From contig NZ_LIQG01000027.1 of NCBI RefSeq assembly GCF_001418015.1, forward strand, positions 229,501 to 293,500: 64,000 nt of DNA, written 5' to 3'. This stretch comes from Lacinutrix mariniflava. GTDB lineage: Bacteria > Bacteroidota > Bacteroidia > Flavobacteriales > Flavobacteriaceae. The position numbers and the translations under genes are program-made. This document shows, in pieces, positions 24,829-50,624 of this stretch. The notes beneath the pieces were generated by a model that made no database searches, had not been told where the DNA came from, and saw only the letters and a program-made list of their open reading frames with translations. The stretch's first letter is position 1. The number at the start of each line of letters is the position of its first letter.

Positions 24829-26388
24829 ATGAAAACATATAAATATTTATTCTTGCTGTTTGCGAGTTTATCCATAGTTGGATGTTCAGACTTAGAAGAA
24901 GAGCCTGTTGGTTTGTTAACATCGCCAGATGATTTTTTCCAAACTACAGAAAATATTCAGACCGCCGTAAATGGCTCTCTTACGCACGCAATCAACGAAA
25001 AGTTTTGGGGAAGAAAATTATCTGTAGCCTTAATGTTACGTTCAGATATGGTAGATCTTGCATCTAACGAAGCAAGAAGAGTTGAAAATAATGAATTTAC
25101 TACTCTAGCAAATAACGGAATGATTAGTGAATTTTGGTTAAAAACCTATCAAGGTATTGCTGCTGCTAATCAGGCTATTAAAGGTTCAGAGTCAGTAGGT
25201 GTAGCACCCGAGGCTAAAAACCCAGTTACTGCACAGGCTTATTTTGCAAGAGCATTCTATTATTTTCATTTAGTAAGACAGTTTGGTGATGTTCCTTATA
25301 TCGATGTGCCATTAACGCCTGAAAATACTCCGGCAATGTCTACTATTAGTAAAACACCAGCTGCAGAGGTTTATGATAATATTATTGCAGATTTACAATT
25401 TGCTAAAACTTGGCTGCCAGATACTCAGGCATCTAGAGCAATACCATCTAAAGCTGCTGCAAGTTCTTATTTAGCTTTAGTTTATTTAACAATGGCAGGA
25501 ACAAATGATAATGTTAATTTTCAAAAAGCATTTGACGAAGCTCAAGATGTTATTGCTAACAAAGGAACTTACAACTTAGATTTAGATCCAGATTTTCAAA
25601 ATCTGTTTAATGCTGATGTTATTGATAATTCTTTGGAACCAATTTTTGCTTTAGATTACAATAACTTCGAAGCTCCAAACAATGGTTACGACCAAATAGC
25701 ACCAATGACTGGTATCCGAGGAGACGATAGAAACTCAGGAGGTGGTTGGTCTGTAGCAGTGCCTTCACTAGATGTATATACAACATGGAATGCAGGCGAT
25801 TATAGAAGAGCTGTAAGTTTGGACGATGGAGCTTCAATTGGAGGTAATCTTGAGCCTTATACTAATTTTATAGTAAGCGGTCATCAGTTTGCAAAAAATA
25901 GACCTTATATAGCAAAATACACACGTTATCCTGGAGCTTTTGCTCGTGGAAATGCCAGAGCGACAAGTCATAATTATTCTATGATACGTTATGCTGAGGT
26001 GTTATTAATTGCAGCAGAAGCAGGCGTAGCGATTGGACAAAATATTACAGCTCGTAATTATTTAAACGAAGTAAGAGCAAGAGCTAGAATGGGCGGTGTA
26101 ACACAGCGTAATGGTGTACAAGTTACTGTGTCGGCAAGTGCAGAACCTGCAGATCATACAGGAACAGTTACTGCAGATGATATTCTTGAAGAACGTAGAT
26201 TAGAATTTGCTTTTGAAGGTATAAGGTGGTACGATATTGTTAGAAGACAATTAGGAGCAACTGCATTTGGGGCTTCAGGTTTAGAAGGACTTAAGCCAGA
26301 ATTTTCTTCAACAGATTATTTATTACCACTGCCAGGAGATGAGTTGGATAGAAATCCTAACTTATTACCGCAGAACCCAGGTTATTAA
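24829..26388 (+). CDS. SusD/RagB-type surface lipoprotein 2
   Basis: This 519-residue SusD partner of SusC2 has a lipoprotein signal ending SIVGCSD. It contains the TPR-like helices (AQAYFARAFYYFHLVRQFGD) and the RagB C-terminal motif (ILEERRLEFAFEGIRWYDIVRR), ending QNPGY. It lies 23 bases after SusC2. No lyase or extra surface protein is linked to this pair, unlike the first pair. Confidence 0.94.
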   Translation: MKTYKYLFLLFASLSIVGCSDLEEEPVGLLTSPDDFFQTTENIQTAVNGSLTHAINEKFWGRKLSVALMLRSDMVDLASNEARRVENNEFTTLANNGMISEFWLKTYQGIAAANQAIKGSESVGVAPEAKNPVTAQAYFARAFYYFHLVRQFGDVPYIDVPLTPENTPAMSTISKTPAAEVYDNIIADLQFAKTWLPDTQASRAIPSKAAASSYLALVYLTMAGTNDNVNFQKAFDEAQDVIANKGTYNLDLDPDFQNLFNADVIDNSLEPIFALDYNNFEAPNNGYDQIAPMTGIRGDDRNSGGGWSVAVPSLDVYTTWNAGDYRRAVSLDDGASIGGNLEPYTNFIVSGHQFAKNRPYIAKYTRYPGAFARGNARATSHNYSMIRYAEVLLIAAEAGVAIGQNITARNYLNEVRARARMGGVTQRNGVQVTVSASAEPADHTGTVTADDILEERRLEFAFEGIRWYDIVRRQLGATAFGASGLEGLKPEFSSTDYLLPLPGDELDRNPNLLPQNPGY

Positions 26389-26761
26389 TTATTACAAAAT
26401 AGATGTAATTATTTCAGTTAGTTTTGTTAAGATTTGAGTCTGGCCTAATTTTTAAGGCCGGTAAGTCTTATTTTTTTAAGTGATATAGATTATTTCTAAA
26501 TTTACTAAGTTACCGAGTATAGCTTTCATGTAAAATATAAATCATTATTTCATCTCACTCTTGCTAAAGTGAGATCTTACAAATTGGAGTAACACATTAG
26601 CAATAATTTGATTAGTCTAAAATTATGTGTCTTGAAGCTAAGGTTTACTGGTCTAAAGCTAGATCAGTAAAGTTTAGTAAAAAAAATAAATATCTAATAA
26701 TGTTTTTTGAGAGATATACGCTAAATTAGCAGTAGATATTGGTTAACCAATTATTAAGTTT
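26389..26761 (+). other. Intergenic region between SusD2 and gntR
   Basis: This 373-bp gap contains three inverted repeats: a GGCC...GGCC hairpin near 26442-26459, ATCTCACT/AGTGAGAT at 26552-26575, and a 12-bp stem with one mismatch at 26644-26671. None is followed directly by a strong T run, so I cannot assign the SusCD2 terminator. The gntR operator is at 26739-26750. Confidence 0.6.
26739..26750. promoter_or_regulatory. Single perfect GntR operator before gntR
   Basis: TTGGTTAACCAA is a perfect 12-bp palindrome matching the operators of the three alginate promoters. It ends 11 bases before the gntR start codon, a place that suits self-repression. The promoter boxes around it are unclear. 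Confidence 0.8.
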
Positions 26762-27463
26762 ATGAAATTAGAGATACTAACAAAAACTGAAAACTTGAAT
26801 GTGCAAAAACACATTATTGCTGGAATAAGAGATTTAATTAATTTGAAGAATCTGGAACCTGGAGATAAATTACCTTCAGAACGTATGCTTTCAGAAAAAT
26901 TAGAGGTTTCTAGAGGTAATATTAGAGATGCGATTCAAAAATTAGAATTTTATGGCTTATTAAAATCAATTCCTCAGAGCGGAACTTTTGTTGCTAACAT
27001 AGGTGTTATTGCTATGAATGGGATGATTGATGATATTCTTCGGCTAGAAGAACCAGAATTTAAATCTTTGGTTGAAACGAGAATTCTGTTAGAATTAAAA
27101 ACCGTAAGGTTGGCAGCATTAAGAAGAACAGATGAAGATCTTGATGAAATGAAAGCGGCTTTAGATGCCTTTTCTAAAAAAGTATTGAATAAGGAAGATG
27201 CTGTACAAGAAGATTTGCTTTTTCATTTAGCCATAGCTAAAGCAAGCGGAAACAGCAGTATGAATACTTTTATGCTAATTATTACTCCCGAGATTATTAC
27301 TAATTTCGAAAAATATCATGTCTGTGATAAAGACTTAGCTCAAAAAGGAATTAAAGAACATGAAGCAATATTTAAAGCCATAAAAAATAAAGATCCACAA
27401 TTGGCTAAGAAAAAAATGAAAGAACATTTTAAAGAACTGTACAAGTACTGTTACAACGTTTAA
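26762..27463 (+). CDS. FadR/FCD-type GntR regulator of the alginate locus
   Basis: This 233-residue regulator has an N-terminal winged helix (about 10-80; PSERMLSEKLEVSRGNIRD is the recognition part) and a C-terminal all-helical FCD ligand-binding domain (about 90-225) with the HLAIAKASGN segment and metal-binding histidines. It likely binds the TGGTNNACCA sites found before PL6, SusC1, SusC2 and its own gene. Because those sites overlap the -7 boxes, it is most likely a repressor released by a catabolic intermediate such as DEH or KDG. That effector is an inference. Confidence 0.9.
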   Translation: MKLEILTKTENLNVQKHIIAGIRDLINLKNLEPGDKLPSERMLSEKLEVSRGNIRDAIQKLEFYGLLKSIPQSGTFVANIGVIAMNGMIDDILRLEEPEFKSLVETRILLELKTVRLAALRRTDEDLDEMKAALDAFSKKVLNKEDAVQEDLLFHLAIAKASGNSSMNTFMLIITPEIITNFEKYHVCDKDLAQKGIKEHEAIFKAIKNKDPQLAKKKMKEHFKELYKYCYNV

Positions 27464-27620
27464 AAAAGTAAACTTCAGTTAATAAAGTGCACAATTTATT
27501 AATTGAATGTATTGTAGTAAAGAGACAAGGAGGGAAGGTAATTATAGTAAAATAAGTAGATTCATGCTTTTTTTACAACTTACTTGGGATAAAATATTCA
27601 GTTACCTCAAAACTGAAATT

Positions 27621-27650
27621 AAGAAAAACAGGGCAAATGCCCTTTTTCTT
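27621..27650 (+). terminator. Terminator-like hairpin between gntR and the MFS gene
   Basis: AGGGC (27630-27634) pairs with GCCCT (27639-27643), extended by A/T pairs with a bulge, and runs into five T then CTT. It lies 158 bases after gntR but only 28 bases before the MFS start. It may terminate gntR or attenuate entry to the catabolic operon. Confidence 0.6.
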
Positions 27651-27678
27651 AAAATTATAACATAACAAACTACTATAA

Positions 27679-28980
27679 ATGAAATTAAAAGGATTAAGAT
27701 GGTGGGTAGTAGGGCTCGTTGCTTTGGCAGCAGTTGTAAACTATATCGATAGACAAGCATTTGGAGCGCTGTGGCCAGATATCGCGAATGACTTATTTCC
27801 AGAGATGGATAAGGATGGACATAAAGCTATATACGGTATCATATCAACGGTGTTTATAATTTCTTATGCTGGAGGTCAAGCTCTTTTTGGTAAGATTTTC
27901 GACTGGATAGGGACTAGAATGGGCTTTGCACTATCTATAGGAGTTTGGTCTATTGCAACAGTATTCCATGCTTTTGCTCAAGGAATGTTGAGTTTTTCAA
28001 TTTTTAGATCAATTTTGGGCGTGGCAGAAGCAGGTAATTGGCCTGGTGCAGCAAAAGCGAATGCAGAGTGGTTTCCAACTAAAGAGAGAGCACTTGCTCA
28101 AGGAGTCTTTAATTCGGGTGCTGCAATTGGAGGAATAGTAGCTTATCCTGTAATAGGATTATTGTCAGCTTATTTAGAATGGAAATCTATATTTATAGTT
28201 GTTGGTGTAATGGGTTTAATATGGTTAATACCATGGCTATACATTGTGAAATCAGGACCTAAAACACATCCTTGGTTATCCGAAGATGAAAAAAAATATA
28301 TACTCTCTGGACAAAAAAATCAAGACTTAGATGAAGATGGTGAATATGATGATGGTTATGTTCCTGATACGAAAGAACTTCTTAAGCATAAAGAAAGCTG
28401 GGGAGTTATAATCGCTTCGGCGGCACTAGATCCTATTTGGTGGTTATTTATCGTTTGGATACCGCTCTATTTGTCTGAAGTTTTTGGAATGGATGTAAAG
28501 CAAATAGCATTCTCGGCTTGGGTACCTTACGTTGGAGCAATGATTGGTGCAATATTTGGAGGTTTACTAGCTAAGAATAGGCTTACAGCTGGATGGTCTG
28601 TAGATAAGACAAGAAAAATGACTATTACTTTAGGTTGTTTAATCATGATTCCATGTTTTTTTCTTTTAAAAGCACCAGCATCGGCTACAAGCGCCGTGAT
28701 TATTATGGCAGTTTTACTTTTTGGATTTCAAATAGCAATCGGTAACATACAAACTATGCCAAGTGATCTTTTTAGCGGAAAAATAGTTGGAACACTTTCT
28801 GGTTTTGCTGGAATGGCAGCTAAACTTGGAGCAGCAGGACTTACAGCAGTGGTAACAATCGTTACAACAGGAGGTAACTATACTCCGGCGTTTATAATTG
28901 GTGGAGTATTAGCAATTATAGCATTATCGGCTGTTTGGATTTTGTGTCCTAAAATAGAGCCTTTAAAGCCTAAAGTTTAA
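27679..28980 (+). CDS. MFS transporter, hexuronate/DEH type
   Basis: This 433-residue inner membrane transporter of the anion:cation symporter type has about 12 membrane segments. It starts with the family-typical NYIDRQAFGALWPDI, carries WFPTKERALAQGVFNSGAA and has a charged central loop near 205-235. Members next to DEH reductase and kdgK genes are thought to bring DEH or other uronates into the cytoplasm. Here it leads the catabolic operon and would supply the SDR that follows 87 bases later. Confidence 0.9.
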   Translation: MKLKGLRWWVVGLVALAAVVNYIDRQAFGALWPDIANDLFPEMDKDGHKAIYGIISTVFIISYAGGQALFGKIFDWIGTRMGFALSIGVWSIATVFHAFAQGMLSFSIFRSILGVAEAGNWPGAAKANAEWFPTKERALAQGVFNSGAAIGGIVAYPVIGLLSAYLEWKSIFIVVGVMGLIWLIPWLYIVKSGPKTHPWLSEDEKKYILSGQKNQDLDEDGEYDDGYVPDTKELLKHKESWGVIIASAALDPIWWLFIVWIPLYLSEVFGMDVKQIAFSAWVPYVGAMIGAIFGGLLAKNRLTAGWSVDKTRKMTITLGCLIMIPCFFLLKAPASATSAVIIMAVLLFGFQIAIGNIQTMPSDLFSGKIVGTLSGFAGMAAKLGAAGLTAVVTIVTTGGNYTPAFIIGGVLAIIALSAVWILCPKIEPLKPKV

Positions 28981-29067
28981 TAGAGAAAACTAGATTAAGT
29001 TTAAAACAAGAGTTGAGGGAATTAGAATATAAAATATTATAATAAATTAAAATCTAATATTAAAAAG

Positions 29068-29832
29068 ATGAGTAAAAATAGTGGAAAAGTTGCAATAGTA
29101 ACAGGAGCAACAGGAGGAATTGGCTTTGAAGTAGCAAAGAGATTAGGCAAAGATGGATATACTGTAATTTTAAACGGTATAGATGATAAGGCTGGAGCAG
29201 AAAGATTGAAAACACTTACTGATGAGGGTATTACTGCAGAGTACTATGGTTTTGACGTTACAAATGAAGAACAAGTAACTTCAAACATTCAAAAAATTGG
29301 AAATAAATTTGGTCGAATAGATGTACTAGTAAATAATGCTGGTGGATTAGGTGGTAGATCAAGATTTGAGGAGATGACTACTGAGTTTTACAAAAATGTA
29401 ATGGCTTTAAACTTGGATTCTGTATTTTATGCTTCTAGAGCAGCAATACCGTTCCTTAAAAGTGGAGAGCATCCTTCTATTATTAATTATACATCTAATG
29501 CAGGTTGGACTGCAGGTGGACCGGGAGCAGGGATCTATGGTACGTCTAAAGCAGGAGTTCATGCAATAACTAGAGCTTTAGCAAAAGATTTAGCAGAATA
29601 TGGTATTAGAGTAAATGCTGTGTCACCAGGTACAATAGATACTCCATTTCATGCTCAAATTAAAGCGACAAAGCCTGAGGTTTTTGCTTCATGGGCAAAT
29701 AATATAATGTTAGGAAGATTAGGTCAGCCAGAAGATGTAGCAGGTGTTATTTCTTTTTTAGCAAGTAAAGATGCATCTTTCATAACTGCAGAAACTATCC
29801 AAATTGGTGGTGGTCAAGCATTAGGAATATAA
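29068..29832 (+). CDS. SDR oxidoreductase, probable DEH reductase
   Basis: This is a classical short-chain dehydrogenase of 254 residues. The cofactor motif TGATGGIG is at the N-terminus, NNAGG near 90, the serine of NYTSNAG near 147, and YGTSK near 160 gives the catalytic Tyr and Lys. By context it reduces DEH to 2-keto-3-deoxygluconate with NAD(P)H. It sits between the uronate transporter and KDG kinase. The cofactor preference cannot be settled from sequence alone. Confidence 0.88.
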   Translation: MSKNSGKVAIVTGATGGIGFEVAKRLGKDGYTVILNGIDDKAGAERLKTLTDEGITAEYYGFDVTNEEQVTSNIQKIGNKFGRIDVLVNNAGGLGGRSRFEEMTTEFYKNVMALNLDSVFYASRAAIPFLKSGEHPSIINYTSNAGWTAGGPGAGIYGTSKAGVHAITRALAKDLAEYGIRVNAVSPGTIDTPFHAQIKATKPEVFASWANNIMLGRLGQPEDVAGVISFLASKDASFITAETIQIGGGQALGI

Positions 29833-29852
29833 AACTAAAGTTTTAGTAGTGG

Positions 29853-29945
29853 GCCAAATAGTTTTGTTTTCAATGTATTCTTCTTTAAACATAGATGGTT
29901 TAAAATTGAGTAAAAAAGATGATAGAACTATTTGGCTTTTTTTTT
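29853..29945 (+). terminator. Terminator with a structured loop between the DEH reductase and kdgK
   Basis: GCCAAATAGTT (29853-29863) pairs perfectly with AACTATTTGGC (29926-29936), followed by nine T. The 62-base loop contains its own TTTAAAC/GTTTAAA hairpin. It lies only about 30 bases before the kdgK start codon, leaving no room for a promoter after it, so partial read-through or regulated termination is likely. Confidence 0.75.
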
Positions 29946-29975
29946 AATAAAAAGAATAGTAATTAAATTTAAAAC

Positions 29976-30998
29976 ATGAGTAAGATTGTAACATTTGGTG
30001 AAATTATGTTAAGACTCTCTACGGAGCGTCATTTAAGATTCTCTCAAGCAAAAACATTTGCAGCTTCTTATGGTGGTGGTGAATTTAATGTGGCAGTATC
30101 TTTAGCAAATTATGGTATTTCTGCAGAGTTTGTTACTAGGTTGCCTAAAAATGAAATAGGAGCTTGTGCATTAAAAGAGATGCGTAAATTTAACGTAGAG
30201 TCTAAAAATGTAATATATGGCGGTGAGAGGTTAGGTATCTATTATTTAGAAACTGGAGCAGGAACACGTGGTAGCAATGTTGTATACGATAGAGCTAATA
30301 GTTCTATGGCAACTATTCAAAAAGGAGCTATAGACTGGGAGTCTGTTTTAAAAGGAGCAACTTGGTTTCATTGGAGTGGTATTACTCCAGCAATATCAGA
30401 ATCTGCAGCAGAGGAATGTTTAGAAGCAATAAAAGTAGCCCATAAACTAGGTATTACCATTTCTTCAGATTTAAATTATAGATCTAAATTATGGCAATAT
30501 GGGAAAGAGCCTAGTCAAGTAATGCCAGAGCTATTAAAGTATAGTAATATTATATTAGGGGATATTGACACTGCTTTTTTTATGTTAGGAAAAGATAAAG
30601 TAGACCCGAATTATCAAAATGAAAAGTCGTTACCTTATCTATATGATCAACTTTTTAAATTATGTCCTAATTTAAAAACCGTTGCAACGACCTTAAGGTA
30701 TTCGGTAAGTGCATCTCATCAACGTATAGGCGGTATTTTATACGATGGTAAAACCATATTTAATGCAGATGTTAAAGAAGTGACTCCAGTTGTAGATAGA
30801 GTAGGAAGCGGAGATGCTTTTATGGGAGGTTTAATTTACGGATTAGTAAATAATGCAACCGATAAACAAAAGGCTTTAAATATAGCAGTAGCAGCTTGCT
30901 GTTTAAAACACACCATTTCAGGTGATTGTAATTTAATTACACTTGATGACATCGAAAAGCTATTAAGCGGCGATTCTTCAGGTAAAGTTTCAAGATAA
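29976..30998 (+). CDS. kdgK: 2-keto-3-deoxygluconate kinase
   Basis: This PfkB/ribokinase-family sugar kinase of 340 residues phosphorylates KDG to KDPG. It has an N-terminal substrate-binding FGEIMLRLS and GGGEFNVAVSLA, and the C-terminal PfkB signature DRVGSGDAFMGGL with the catalytic Asp. It is 12 bases upstream of eda, which uses its product. A structured terminator lies between it and the DEH reductase gene. Confidence 0.95.
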   Translation: MSKIVTFGEIMLRLSTERHLRFSQAKTFAASYGGGEFNVAVSLANYGISAEFVTRLPKNEIGACALKEMRKFNVESKNVIYGGERLGIYYLETGAGTRGSNVVYDRANSSMATIQKGAIDWESVLKGATWFHWSGITPAISESAAEECLEAIKVAHKLGITISSDLNYRSKLWQYGKEPSQVMPELLKYSNIILGDIDTAFFMLGKDKVDPNYQNEKSLPYLYDQLFKLCPNLKTVATTLRYSVSASHQRIGGILYDGKTIFNADVKEVTPVVDRVGSGDAFMGGLIYGLVNNATDKQKALNIAVAACCLKHTISGDCNLITLDDIEKLLSGDSSGKVSR

Positions 30999-31010
30999 AT
31001 AAAAAAGAAA

Positions 31011-31673
31011 ATGGCACAATATTCAAGAATAGAAGTTGCAACAGTAATGCAAAACACAGGATTAGTTCCTTTGTTTTACGACAGTAATATAGATAATTGT
31101 AAACAAGTATTAAAGGCTTGTTATTCTGGAGGAGCAAGACTTATGGAGTTTACAGCAAGAGGAGATTTTGCTCATGAGATATTTGGAGCGCTTAACAAGT
31201 ATGCTATAAAGGAATTACCAGGAATGATACTTGGTGTAGGTTCTGTTACAGATGCAGCATCTGCCTCGCTATATATGGCTTTAGGAGCAAATTTTATAGT
31301 AACTCCAGTGTTAAGAGAAGATATAGCAATGGTTTGTAATAGACGTAAGGTATTATGGTCACCAGGTTGTGGTTCTCTTACAGAAATTGCAAAAGCAGAA
31401 GAGTTAGGATGTGAAATTGTAAAATTATTTCCAGGTGGAATATATGGACCAGATTTTATTAAAGCAATAAAAGGCCCTCAACCTTGGACAAGCATTATGC
31501 CTACTGGCGGTGTTTCTCCAACTAAAGAAAATCTTGAAAGCTGGTTTTCTGCGGGAGTAACATGTGTTGGAATCGGTTCTAAATTGATAAAAAAGAACAC
31601 AAAAGGAGAATATGATTTTAACGCTATTGAAACGCTTACTAGAGGAGCAATAGAAATAATTAAAGCGCTTTAA
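31011..31673 (+). CDS. eda: KDPG aldolase
   Basis: This 220-residue class I aldolase splits 2-keto-3-deoxy-6-phosphogluconate into pyruvate and glyceraldehyde-3-phosphate, the last step of alginate catabolism. Schiff-base Lys lies in EIVKLFPGG (about 138) and the acid/base Glu in LMEFTARG (about 46). The gene directly follows kdgK and is followed two bases later by a short LacI-like gene. Confidence 0.95.
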   Translation: MAQYSRIEVATVMQNTGLVPLFYDSNIDNCKQVLKACYSGGARLMEFTARGDFAHEIFGALNKYAIKELPGMILGVGSVTDAASASLYMALGANFIVTPVLREDIAMVCNRRKVLWSPGCGSLTEIAKAEELGCEIVKLFPGGIYGPDFIKAIKGPQPWTSIMPTGGVSPTKENLESWFSAGVTCVGIGSKLIKKNTKGEYDFNAIETLTRGAIEIIKAL

Positions 31674-31675
31674 GT

Positions 31676-32194
31676 ATGAAAAATTTAGAATCTATAATGA
31701 CATTAAAAGAATTGTCTCGTTTATCTGGATTCTCAGTTTCTACGGTTTCAAAGGCTTTAAATAACAAATTAGATATTAGTATAAACACAAAGAAGATTAT
31801 AAAAGATATTGCTTTAGAGCATAATTACATACCAAATACATTTGCTGTCGGTTTAAGGAAGAAAAGAACGCAAGCAGTGGCAGTAATCATCCCTCAAGCT
31901 AATACTAATCTTTACAGTTGGTTCTTGTTTAATATAGAGAAATTAGCAAATATTAATGGCTATAGAATTGTTCTCTTTCAATCTTTAGAATCTCCTTCAA
32001 GAGAGAAGGAGTGTATAAAGAATAGTAATGATGGTAGTGTAGACGGTGTTATTTTACTCTCTAAAACTAAGCCTCAAATGCAAGATTATAATCATCCAAT
32101 TGAGTTTATTCAAATAACCGAGAATCAGTCTCAAGAGCAACTTGAGAAATATTGCGTTAATAGTTTTAATGCATTATTAAAAAACATAGCATAA
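31676..32194 (+). CDS. LacI-family regulator lacking the C-terminal half
   Basis: This 172-residue protein begins with a complete LacI helix-turn-helix and hinge (LKELSRLSGFSVSTVSKALN, about 10-29) and the first part of the periplasmic-binding-like domain (to about 130), then ends. Full-length LacI proteins are about 330-345 residues. Only 27 bases separate its stop from the next gene, and no remnant of the missing half is present. It may be a natural short DNA-binding protein or the result of an internal deletion. The start is 2 bases after eda, indicating tight coupling to the operon. Confidence 0.82.
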   Translation: MKNLESIMTLKELSRLSGFSVSTVSKALNNKLDISINTKKIIKDIALEHNYIPNTFAVGLRKKRTQAVAVIIPQANTNLYSWFLFNIEKLANINGYRIVLFQSLESPSREKECIKNSNDGSVDGVILLSKTKPQMQDYNHPIEFIQITENQSQEQLEKYCVNSFNALLKNIA

Positions 32195-32221
32195 TTTTTT
32201 AAGAAACTAAAACATACTTAA

Positions 32222-33081: not shown

Positions 33082-33116
33082 AAAACCCTTAAAACTAGAT
33101 AGTTAAAAGGGTTTTT
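33082..33116. terminator. Bidirectional terminator between eamA and ssrA
   Basis: AAAACCCTT (33082-33090) pairs with AAGGGTTTT (33107-33115), with an inner AACT/AGTT stem. T runs occur on both strands, so it can end the plus-strand alginate operon and the minus-strand tmRNA. Confidence 0.85.
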
Positions 33117-33117
33117 G

Positions 33118-33509
33118 TGGAGTCGGAGAGAATCGAACTCTCGTCCAAACAAGTAAGAAAGTAGCTTTCTACACGTTTATTTTCTTCTTAGGTTTTCGAG
33201 TTTAAGCTGGTTAGAAACAACCCACTTTAACCTTATCTTTTTAATCTCGAAAAGGCAACAAAGCACTACCAAATCTATCTTGACTTTTACGATATCTCAA
33301 ATGGAACGCCGTCAATCAAGGCTTTCCGGAGACATAAAGCTTGCTCACCTTGTGAGCCGAGGCTTAATCCTACTATAATTCGGATTAGGCAGCTAAAGCG
33401 TAGTTATTCTCGCCGTTTAAAAAGTTGACTTAGCCTTTAACGTGTTTCAAAATCATTACACGACGTGCTTACTAGTTTATTAATCTCGCTGTCAAAACCA
33501 GTCGACCCC
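33118..33509 (-). ncRNA. ssrA: Transfer-messenger RNA (tmRNA)
   Basis: This is the tmRNA that rescues stalled ribosomes. On the minus strand it begins GGGGTCGACTGGTTTTGACA and ends with the tRNA-like T arm GGTTCGATTCTCTCCGACTC followed by CA, so CCA is encoded. The tag reading frame ends with codons for GENNYALAA and a TAA stop at 33385-33414, close to tags known from Bacteroidota. The exact resume codon upstream is not certain. The terminator at 33082-33116 closes the gene. Confidence 0.95.
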
Positions 33510-33535
33510 AAAAATATAATACAGTAATTTTTTAT

Positions 33536-33635
33536 GGCGTTACCCATTTTTGCTTTAAAGGGCAAAAATGTGTCAGGCTTTTCGCTATATCTTTTGCCGA
33601 AAAAGCAAAAGGATGCCGCTTCAATCCTTAACGCA
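33536..33635 (+). repeat. Structured intergenic repeat, copy 1
   Basis: This element of about 100 bases has an outer stem GCGTTA (33537-33542)/TAACGC (33629-33634) and two internal perfect hairpins: CATTTTTGC/GCAAAAATG (33545-33570) and CTTTTGC/GCAAAAG (33591-33611). The right end reads GATGCCGCTTCAATCCTTAA. A diverged copy in the opposite orientation is at 48567-48645. From memory, similar sequences are scattered in other flavobacterial genomes. It begins next to the tmRNA promoter. The open frames across it look like accidents of composition. Confidence 0.6.
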
Positions 33636-33773
33636 CAAACCAAGAAACAAACTAATAAAGTTTCGAGGACTGCAAAATTACTAAAAATATTAACTCAAAA
33701 GCTATACCAAACCACTTTTCTAGTAAATATAAATAACAATGTCAGTACAAATTATTAAATTTAGCTTAAAAAG

Positions 33774-38297: not shown

Positions 38298-38326
38298 AAA
38301 AGCCACGATATGTATCGTGGCTTTTT
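38298..38326. terminator. Bidirectional terminator between convergent genes
   Basis: GCCACGAT (38302-38309) pairs with ATCGTGGC (38314-38321), extended by A/T pairs, with T runs on both strands. It separates the calcium-repeat lipoprotein from the convergent TlpA-like gene. Confidence 0.88.
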
Positions 38327-50588: not shown

Positions 50589-50624
50589 AAAAGAGAAACA
50601 CTGCAAAGTGTTTCTCTTTTTTTT
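50589..50624 (+). terminator. Intrinsic terminator 1 after typA
   Basis: AAAGAGAAACACT pairs with AGTGTTTCTCTTT around a 4-base loop, followed by a T run. Confidence 0.9.

Follow-up and report, generated by a model that had tools for sequence, protein, structure and literature searches.

The window, by which we mean the whole 64,000-nt stretch of Lacinutrix mariniflava DNA that was analysed, contains genes in the order GntR/FCD regulator, MFS transporter, SDR oxidoreductase, hairpin, PfkB kinase (kdgK), KDPG aldolase (kdgA) and half-length LacI protein. The SDR gene (29068-29832, + strand) matches Pfam adh_short_C2 (E 9e-64), while none of the 25 NCBIfam matches listed for it is above cut-off, and its presumptive activity as a DEH reductase is suggested by the gene context. 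kdgK (29976-30998, + strand) encodes a PfkB-family sugar kinase (Pfam PfkB, E 1e-26) whose best NCBIfam match, under that model's cut-off, is to the KHG/KDPG aldolase/sugar kinase fusion model; we infer the name from the PfkB and fusion-model matches, together with the neighbouring kdgA. The latter encodes a KDPG/KHG aldolase (31011-31673, + strand; Pfam Aldolase, and NCBIfam NF005499 above cut-off) and starts 12 nt 3′ of kdgK. The closest named relatives of kdgK, in a search that may omit the genome of the window and those very close to it, are from Flavobacteriaceae, such as Oceanihabitans, Lacinutrix, Psychroserpens, Olleya, and Ulvibacter.

Several other features lie nearby. Directly 3′ of kdgA is a gene for a 172-aa LacI-family protein of about half the usual length (31676-32194, + strand). 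Homologues were found in 18 of the 23 loci searched, and 16 of these 18 are of near-equal length (167-175 aa from the start of the match to the stop) with 43-83% identity, although there are close relatives among the 16; the homologues in L046 and L047 end at 98-99 aa. The protein looks like a conserved half-length regulator rather than the product of a decayed gene. A terminator-like hairpin, AGGGCAAATGCCCT followed by TTTTC (27630-27643), separates the GntR regulator from the MFS gene, whose start is 35 nt further on; the relatives compared fold differently there. Further downstream, a tmRNA adjoins a Flavo-1 RNA (33115-33645, - strand). These two RNAs are the only Rfam matches in the window; the hairpin upstream of kdgK has none at the gathering threshold.

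The kdgK-upstream hairpin occupies positions 29852-29945. Its perfect arms, GCCAAATAGTT (29853-29863) and AACTATTTGGC (29926-29936), form 11 bp and are separated by 62 nt (29864-29925), within which TTTAAAC (29884-29890) and GTTTAAA (29898-29904) form an inner hairpin of 7 bp; nine T (29937-29945) follow the outer stem directly. All of this is as the earlier note on this DNA had described it. The first T pairs as G-U, and with G-U pairs included the outer stem comprises 17 unbroken pairs (29852-29868 with 29921-29937), enclosing an apical part of 29869-29920. When folded in a 381-nt window context, the outer and inner stems have pair probabilities of 0.82-1.0, and the inner stem is predicted to take in 29876-29880 with 29908-29912 as well, so as to span 29876-29912 in the minimum free energy (MFE) structure. 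An AU-rich leader (29946-29975) connects the hairpin to the kdgK start.

The MFE of the hairpin is -31.4 kcal/mol, as against -17.1 ± 3.0 kcal/mol for dinucleotide shuffles (z -4.7, 0/200 as low). We also counted motifs in which perfect arms of 11 bp or more, separated by 3-90 nt, are followed by at least seven T in eight positions. The + strand of the window has three such sites and the - strand none, where 60 shuffles average 0.08. Besides the kdgK hairpin, the sites are 38299-38324 and 50590-50619, both with loops of 4-8 nt and the look of ordinary terminators. Without the T run, 11-bp inverted repeats are common in this AT-rich window (22 on the + strand vs. 7 per shuffle). A terminator scan restricted to loops of 3-8 nt did not have the kdgK hairpin in its output.

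We gathered the kdgK-upstream gaps from named genomes and from other genomes of the family, and found the outer stem in 17 distinct loci (the window, G005, G009, G011, G012, G122, G202, G378, G379, and L038-L045). Identical gaps count as one locus (L136 and L163 as L041, L149 and L165 as L044, L150 and L164 as L043, and L169 as L045), and so do repeated loci of a single genome of the G series. In all 17 loci the gap, limited to its last 140 nt, is more stably folded than its shuffles (z -3.1 to -6.7, with no more than 1/200 as low). Sixteen of the loci were aligned and 18 pairs scored; G378 stands outside this alignment and the loop-folding analysis, but is included in the 17-locus counts. In the alignment, 91.5% of cells are paired, compared to 37-54% when it is slid by one to three columns, and the covariation score of 0.202 exceeds both the shuffled value of 0.150 (0/500 as high) and the slid values of 0.037-0.091. 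Changes on both sides were seen at six of the 18 pairs, which is moderately above shuffles (mean 3.3; 21/500 reach six, in a control that ignores relatedness). Unaided, RNAalifold recovered the basal 10 pairs, four of them with double changes. A chance inverted repeat is ruled out by the fold energy, the excess of the motif over shuffles, and the covariation.

A covariance search of related loci had been proposed in the earlier note. The model built from the alignment was run on 397 genomes of the family, with 11 candidates scored per genome and strict filters, and gave matches in 11 genomes at 11 places, every one of which is directly upstream of kdgK; these places take up 17 rows of the listing because the sequence is palindromic and six of them score on the opposite strand too. 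Of the 11 genomes, ten supplied training rows or have the same gap as one, which leaves G378 as the sole independent find. The informative part of the search is thus that there are no matches away from kdgK, among copies strong enough to pass the strict filters, under which weak ones could be missed. kdgK itself was found at E 1e-150 or better in 27 of the 397 genomes, including all 11 with a model match. The short form of the hairpin was also searched for by an exact pattern, which is unable to reach the long form; the pattern matched in 2 of 60 genomes (G005 and G012), both times at kdgK. In summary, the hairpin upstream of kdgK is a real, evolutionarily constrained RNA element: a conserved, stable hairpin between co-directional genes of an operon, as is characteristic of intercistronic hairpins.

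REP-like repeats occur in many copies per genome. The window's own genome has one strong copy of the element (next best E 0.006) and the model matches that pass the strict filters are confined to kdgK, so a dispersed palindromic repeat of this type, in copies of that strength, is rejected. A mobile element or other dispersed repeat was likewise rejected: of three weaker DNA matches considered, G009:C1:726452 and G000:C32:98246 fall within open reading frames, and G011:C16:81916 was judged by its near-identity to that in G009.

The element is placed with respect to kdgK. From the end of the stem to the kdgK ATG there are 32-39 nt in 16 of the 17 loci, and 24 nt in L041, so that the leader is of near-fixed length. 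On the upstream side, measured in 16 loci, 11-21 nt separate the preceding gene's stop codon from the stem core in 12, and in the other four (L038, L041, L042, and G379) the spacer is 97-200 nt of other sequence, while in G378 a second SDR (dehydrogenase) gene sits between the first SDR and the hairpin. Fixed spacing to kdgK, with other genes or other sequence upstream, indicates that the element is tied to kdgK and not to the DEH reductase. The location between the DEH reductase and kdgK, to which the earlier note had drawn attention, is therefore correct for the window but incidental. In a lenient tblastn search against the 17 gaps, L038 contains a decayed remnant of the second SDR at the same place (2703-2858, E 7e-7), and the window's gap contains no convincing one; the position of the window's hairpin beside the DEH reductase may, judging from these gene arrangements, follow the loss of a second SDR. 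More widely, some genomes have an intact second SDR after the first one and ahead of kdgK (as in the L132 gap), and the gene persists as a remnant in L038 and L137, that in L137 being a decayed or internally deleted gene after the SDR, as judged by eye. The gap between the MFS and SDR genes has no comparable hairpin in the window or in the 17 loci examined for it, 14 of which carry the kdgK stem (0 to -5.6 kcal/mol).

The variable upstream sequence also bears on the idea that a small RNA, either cut or transcribed from the 3′ region of the upstream gene, ends with the hairpin. Bacteroides is described as having intra-operonic small RNAs whose ends are terminators or processing sites (PMC7366714). 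However, the loci have no RNA body in common, since they differ 5′ of the stem (97-200 nt of other sequence in the four with long spacers, and another gene in G378); nor is there a promoter-like pair at 29600-29976 in the weak scan described below, or an Rfam match at the gathering threshold. We regard a small RNA as unlikely.

Not every related locus has the hairpin. On a kdgK DNA tree of 33 chosen loci, from which distant kdgK loci (e.g., L051, L053-L117, L177, L178, and L182-L184) were left out, 13 loci are without such a hairpin and three have another one, according to labels assigned by eye, and presence and absence require five changes. Given that it is missing from 13 of the 33 loci, the hairpin is not essential to the pathway. 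The only one of the 13 to be tested against shuffles, G108, has no hairpin in its gap (z +0.6). The different hairpins in the same gap of G111 and G350 have z-scores of -4.6 and -3.5, and that of G384 is not significant (z -1.7, 15/200 shuffles as low). The hairpins of G111 and G350 suggest that having any hairpin at this place may matter more than its sequence.

While the stem is kept, the apical part varies. The 8-nt core arms are 51-72 nt apart in eleven of the aligned loci and 13-18 nt apart in the other five; G378 is also of the long form. The short-looped loci (5 of 17) are without a separate inner hairpin, and the sequence of the inner stem is not conserved across the alignment. Seven of the 11 long loops, when folded alone, beat 95% of their shuffles, and four, including that of the window (p 0.37), do not. 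Some inner pairing may thus be favoured, even with its sequence unconserved. On the 33-locus tree the short form requires three changes, of which strongly supported branches force at least two: the short-looped G005 and G012 cluster with the long-looped window (support 91/95), and the short-looped L039, L040, and G202 cluster with the long-looped L038 (100/100). As only two changes are strongly forced, one shortening plus one reversal is still conceivable. Nevertheless, all the loci share their arms, whereas no common sequence links the short loops, which makes repeated loop shortening the simplest reading, and the loop has apparently been shortened at least twice while the stem stayed.

These observations are what decide the proposal of a two-state RNA switch, made in the earlier note and taken here as a switch between the outer and inner stems. 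The window does have two stems, and seven of the long loops outperform their shuffles. Against this, the stems are nested and predicted to form together, each at the high pair probabilities given above; no competing helix appeared in the 381-nt context fold of the window (relatives were folded for MFE only); the window's loop folds no better than its shuffles; and the five short-looped loci have apparently dispensed with a separate inner hairpin on at least two occasions. Neither did we find a conserved ligand-binding core, in a loop that varies in both length and sequence and belongs to no Rfam family at the gathering threshold. Since the stems are nested, the window's loop is no better than shuffles, and short-looped loci exist, the inner hairpin is neither an alternative to the outer stem nor required, and a switch is highly improbable. 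What stands of the earlier proposal is an RNA element within the operon before kdgK, with a covarying outer stem; of the two stems whose conservation in relatives had been at issue, the outer is kept in 17 loci and the inner largely fails.

The tail of the stem is T-rich over a short distance. T is found at +1, +2, and +3 in 15, 17, and 17 of the 17 loci, and at +4 in 12, with the further tail unconserved (G111 was excluded from these counts, as it has a different hairpin). The nine T of the window are the longest run; most relatives have about four, and L038 keeps the stem without a U tract. Part of the tail can pair with A residues 5′ of the stem, and the conserved first three T may just extend the stem in this way. 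We scanned for promoters by the rule of a TTG paired with TAnnTTTG, and found no such pair at 29600-29976. The same scan over 26300-32200 (5.9 kb) gave a single pair, at 31837, so that the scan is weak and may also miss the promoter of the operon itself. With no promoter pair behind the hairpin, kdgK is probably read through it. A promoter within the hairpin was considered and rejected, as the lone TAnnTTTG match lies inside the 5′ arm, is without a -33 partner, and is present in 2 of the 16 aligned loci (the window and G122).

Nine T and a fold of -31 kcal/mol would, in the window, be compatible with a full terminator, behind which kdgK and kdgA have their own promoter in the gap. However, from the T run to the ATG there are only 30 nt, and the sole TAnnTTTG in the gap is the unpartnered one in the 5′ arm just described, in what is a weak scan. 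We consider this arrangement very unlikely.

A processing or decay element that acts without termination is somewhat improbable but a serious alternative. Here an endonuclease would cut near the hairpin, and the stem would protect either the kdgK-kdgA message at its 5′ end, as in papBA, or the upstream message at its 3′ end, as in malEFG. The near-fixed spacing to kdgK, the survival of the stem in L038 despite loss of its U tract, and the other hairpins in the same gap of G111 (z -4.6) and G350 (z -3.5) are all consistent with such a role, for which intra-operon hairpins of E. coli that lack U tracts offer a precedent (PMC5927463). Yet T at +1 to +3 is nearly invariant, and the window has nine, whereas the precedent hairpins are reported there without these.

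Our preferred interpretation, which we hold to be evenly balanced between right and wrong, is that the hairpin is a constitutive intercistronic stem-loop in the kdgK leader that would act as a leaky terminator and cap the upstream message. In a weaker wording, the sequence evidence is best read as a putative leaky terminator, a putative barrier to mRNA decay, or both, by which the output of kdgK-kdgA would be set. A leaky terminator fits what is seen within the operon: the hairpin is stable and has a U-rich tail, the weak promoter scan recognized nothing behind it, and kdgA follows only 12 nt beyond kdgK. In such a scheme, the nascent operon RNA would form a long, imperfect hairpin immediately 5′ of the ribosome-binding region of kdgK; the U-rich end would cause leaky intrinsic termination, so that part of the transcripts end at the hairpin, which would shield their 3′ ends from exonucleases, and the remaining transcripts would continue into kdgK and kdgA. 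The predicted outcome is more message from the upstream genes than from kdgK-kdgA. The stem would be the working part, with loop length and the inner hairpin free to vary. The structure, covariation, single location, near-fixed spacing to kdgK, and variability of the loop are computed results, while leaky termination, 3′-end protection, and the expression ratio are what we infer from them. The spacing, being fixed to the downstream gene, fits an element of the kdgK leader at least as well as it fits an upstream 3′ cap.

The arm sequence (AAATAG/CTATTT) is near-invariant beyond the needs of pairing, which leaves room for an unlikely further reading, in which the stem would be a regulated element, a double-stranded RNA site recognized by a protein such as an RNase III-type nuclease or an RNA binder specific to the operon. 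Such an element would adjust kdgK-kdgA output to alginate flux, and its arm sequence would have been kept for the sake of recognition. A DNA operator was tried and rejected: the arm sequence has 23 matches in the window, its own two arms included, vs. 23.7 in shuffled sequence, and an arm spacing of 13-72 nt would be ill-suited to a dimer operator site.

Should the leaky-terminator or decay-barrier reading be true, the enzymes for KDG phosphorylation and KDPG cleavage, the last two steps in the breakdown of alginate sugars, would in these marine bacteria be made at their own level within one operon. The loci also provide a natural series on intercistronic hairpins, in which the stem is constant while the core spacing varies from 13 to 72 nt and the U tract from none to nine T. 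A lesson for sequence scanning is that a long terminator loop holding an inner hairpin need not be a switch.

Our literature search, judged from titles and abstract openings, found no description of the kdgK hairpin, and we regard it as an undescribed element of an ordinary kind, without an Rfam match at the gathering threshold. Intrinsic terminators have short loops of 3-8 nt. Like them, the kdgK element has a stem directly followed by a U tract, of nine T in the window copy. Unlike them, it spaces its core arms by 13-72 nt, its stem is AT-rich, its U tract is weak in relatives, and the next gene begins 24-39 nt after the stem. The intra-operonic small RNAs of Bacteroides thetaiotaomicron come from the same phylum and are likewise RNA features between genes of one operon (PMC7366714), but there is no sign of a separate small RNA at the kdgK hairpin. 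Parallels are also known from E. coli, where malEFG and menBCE have intercistronic hairpins that protect the mRNA, papBA has 5′ protection, and the 3′-protective intercistronic hairpins are reported without a uridine tract (PMC5927463). The kdgK stem differs from those of malEFG and menBCE, as described there, in that it is followed by a T-rich +1 to +3 in nearly all loci, and a role in decay is putative here; it therefore departs from a stabilizing hairpin without a U tract. Like them, it is a stable hairpin between the genes of one operon, and intra-operon hairpins of this kind are expected to give neighbouring genes levels that differ (PMC5927463).
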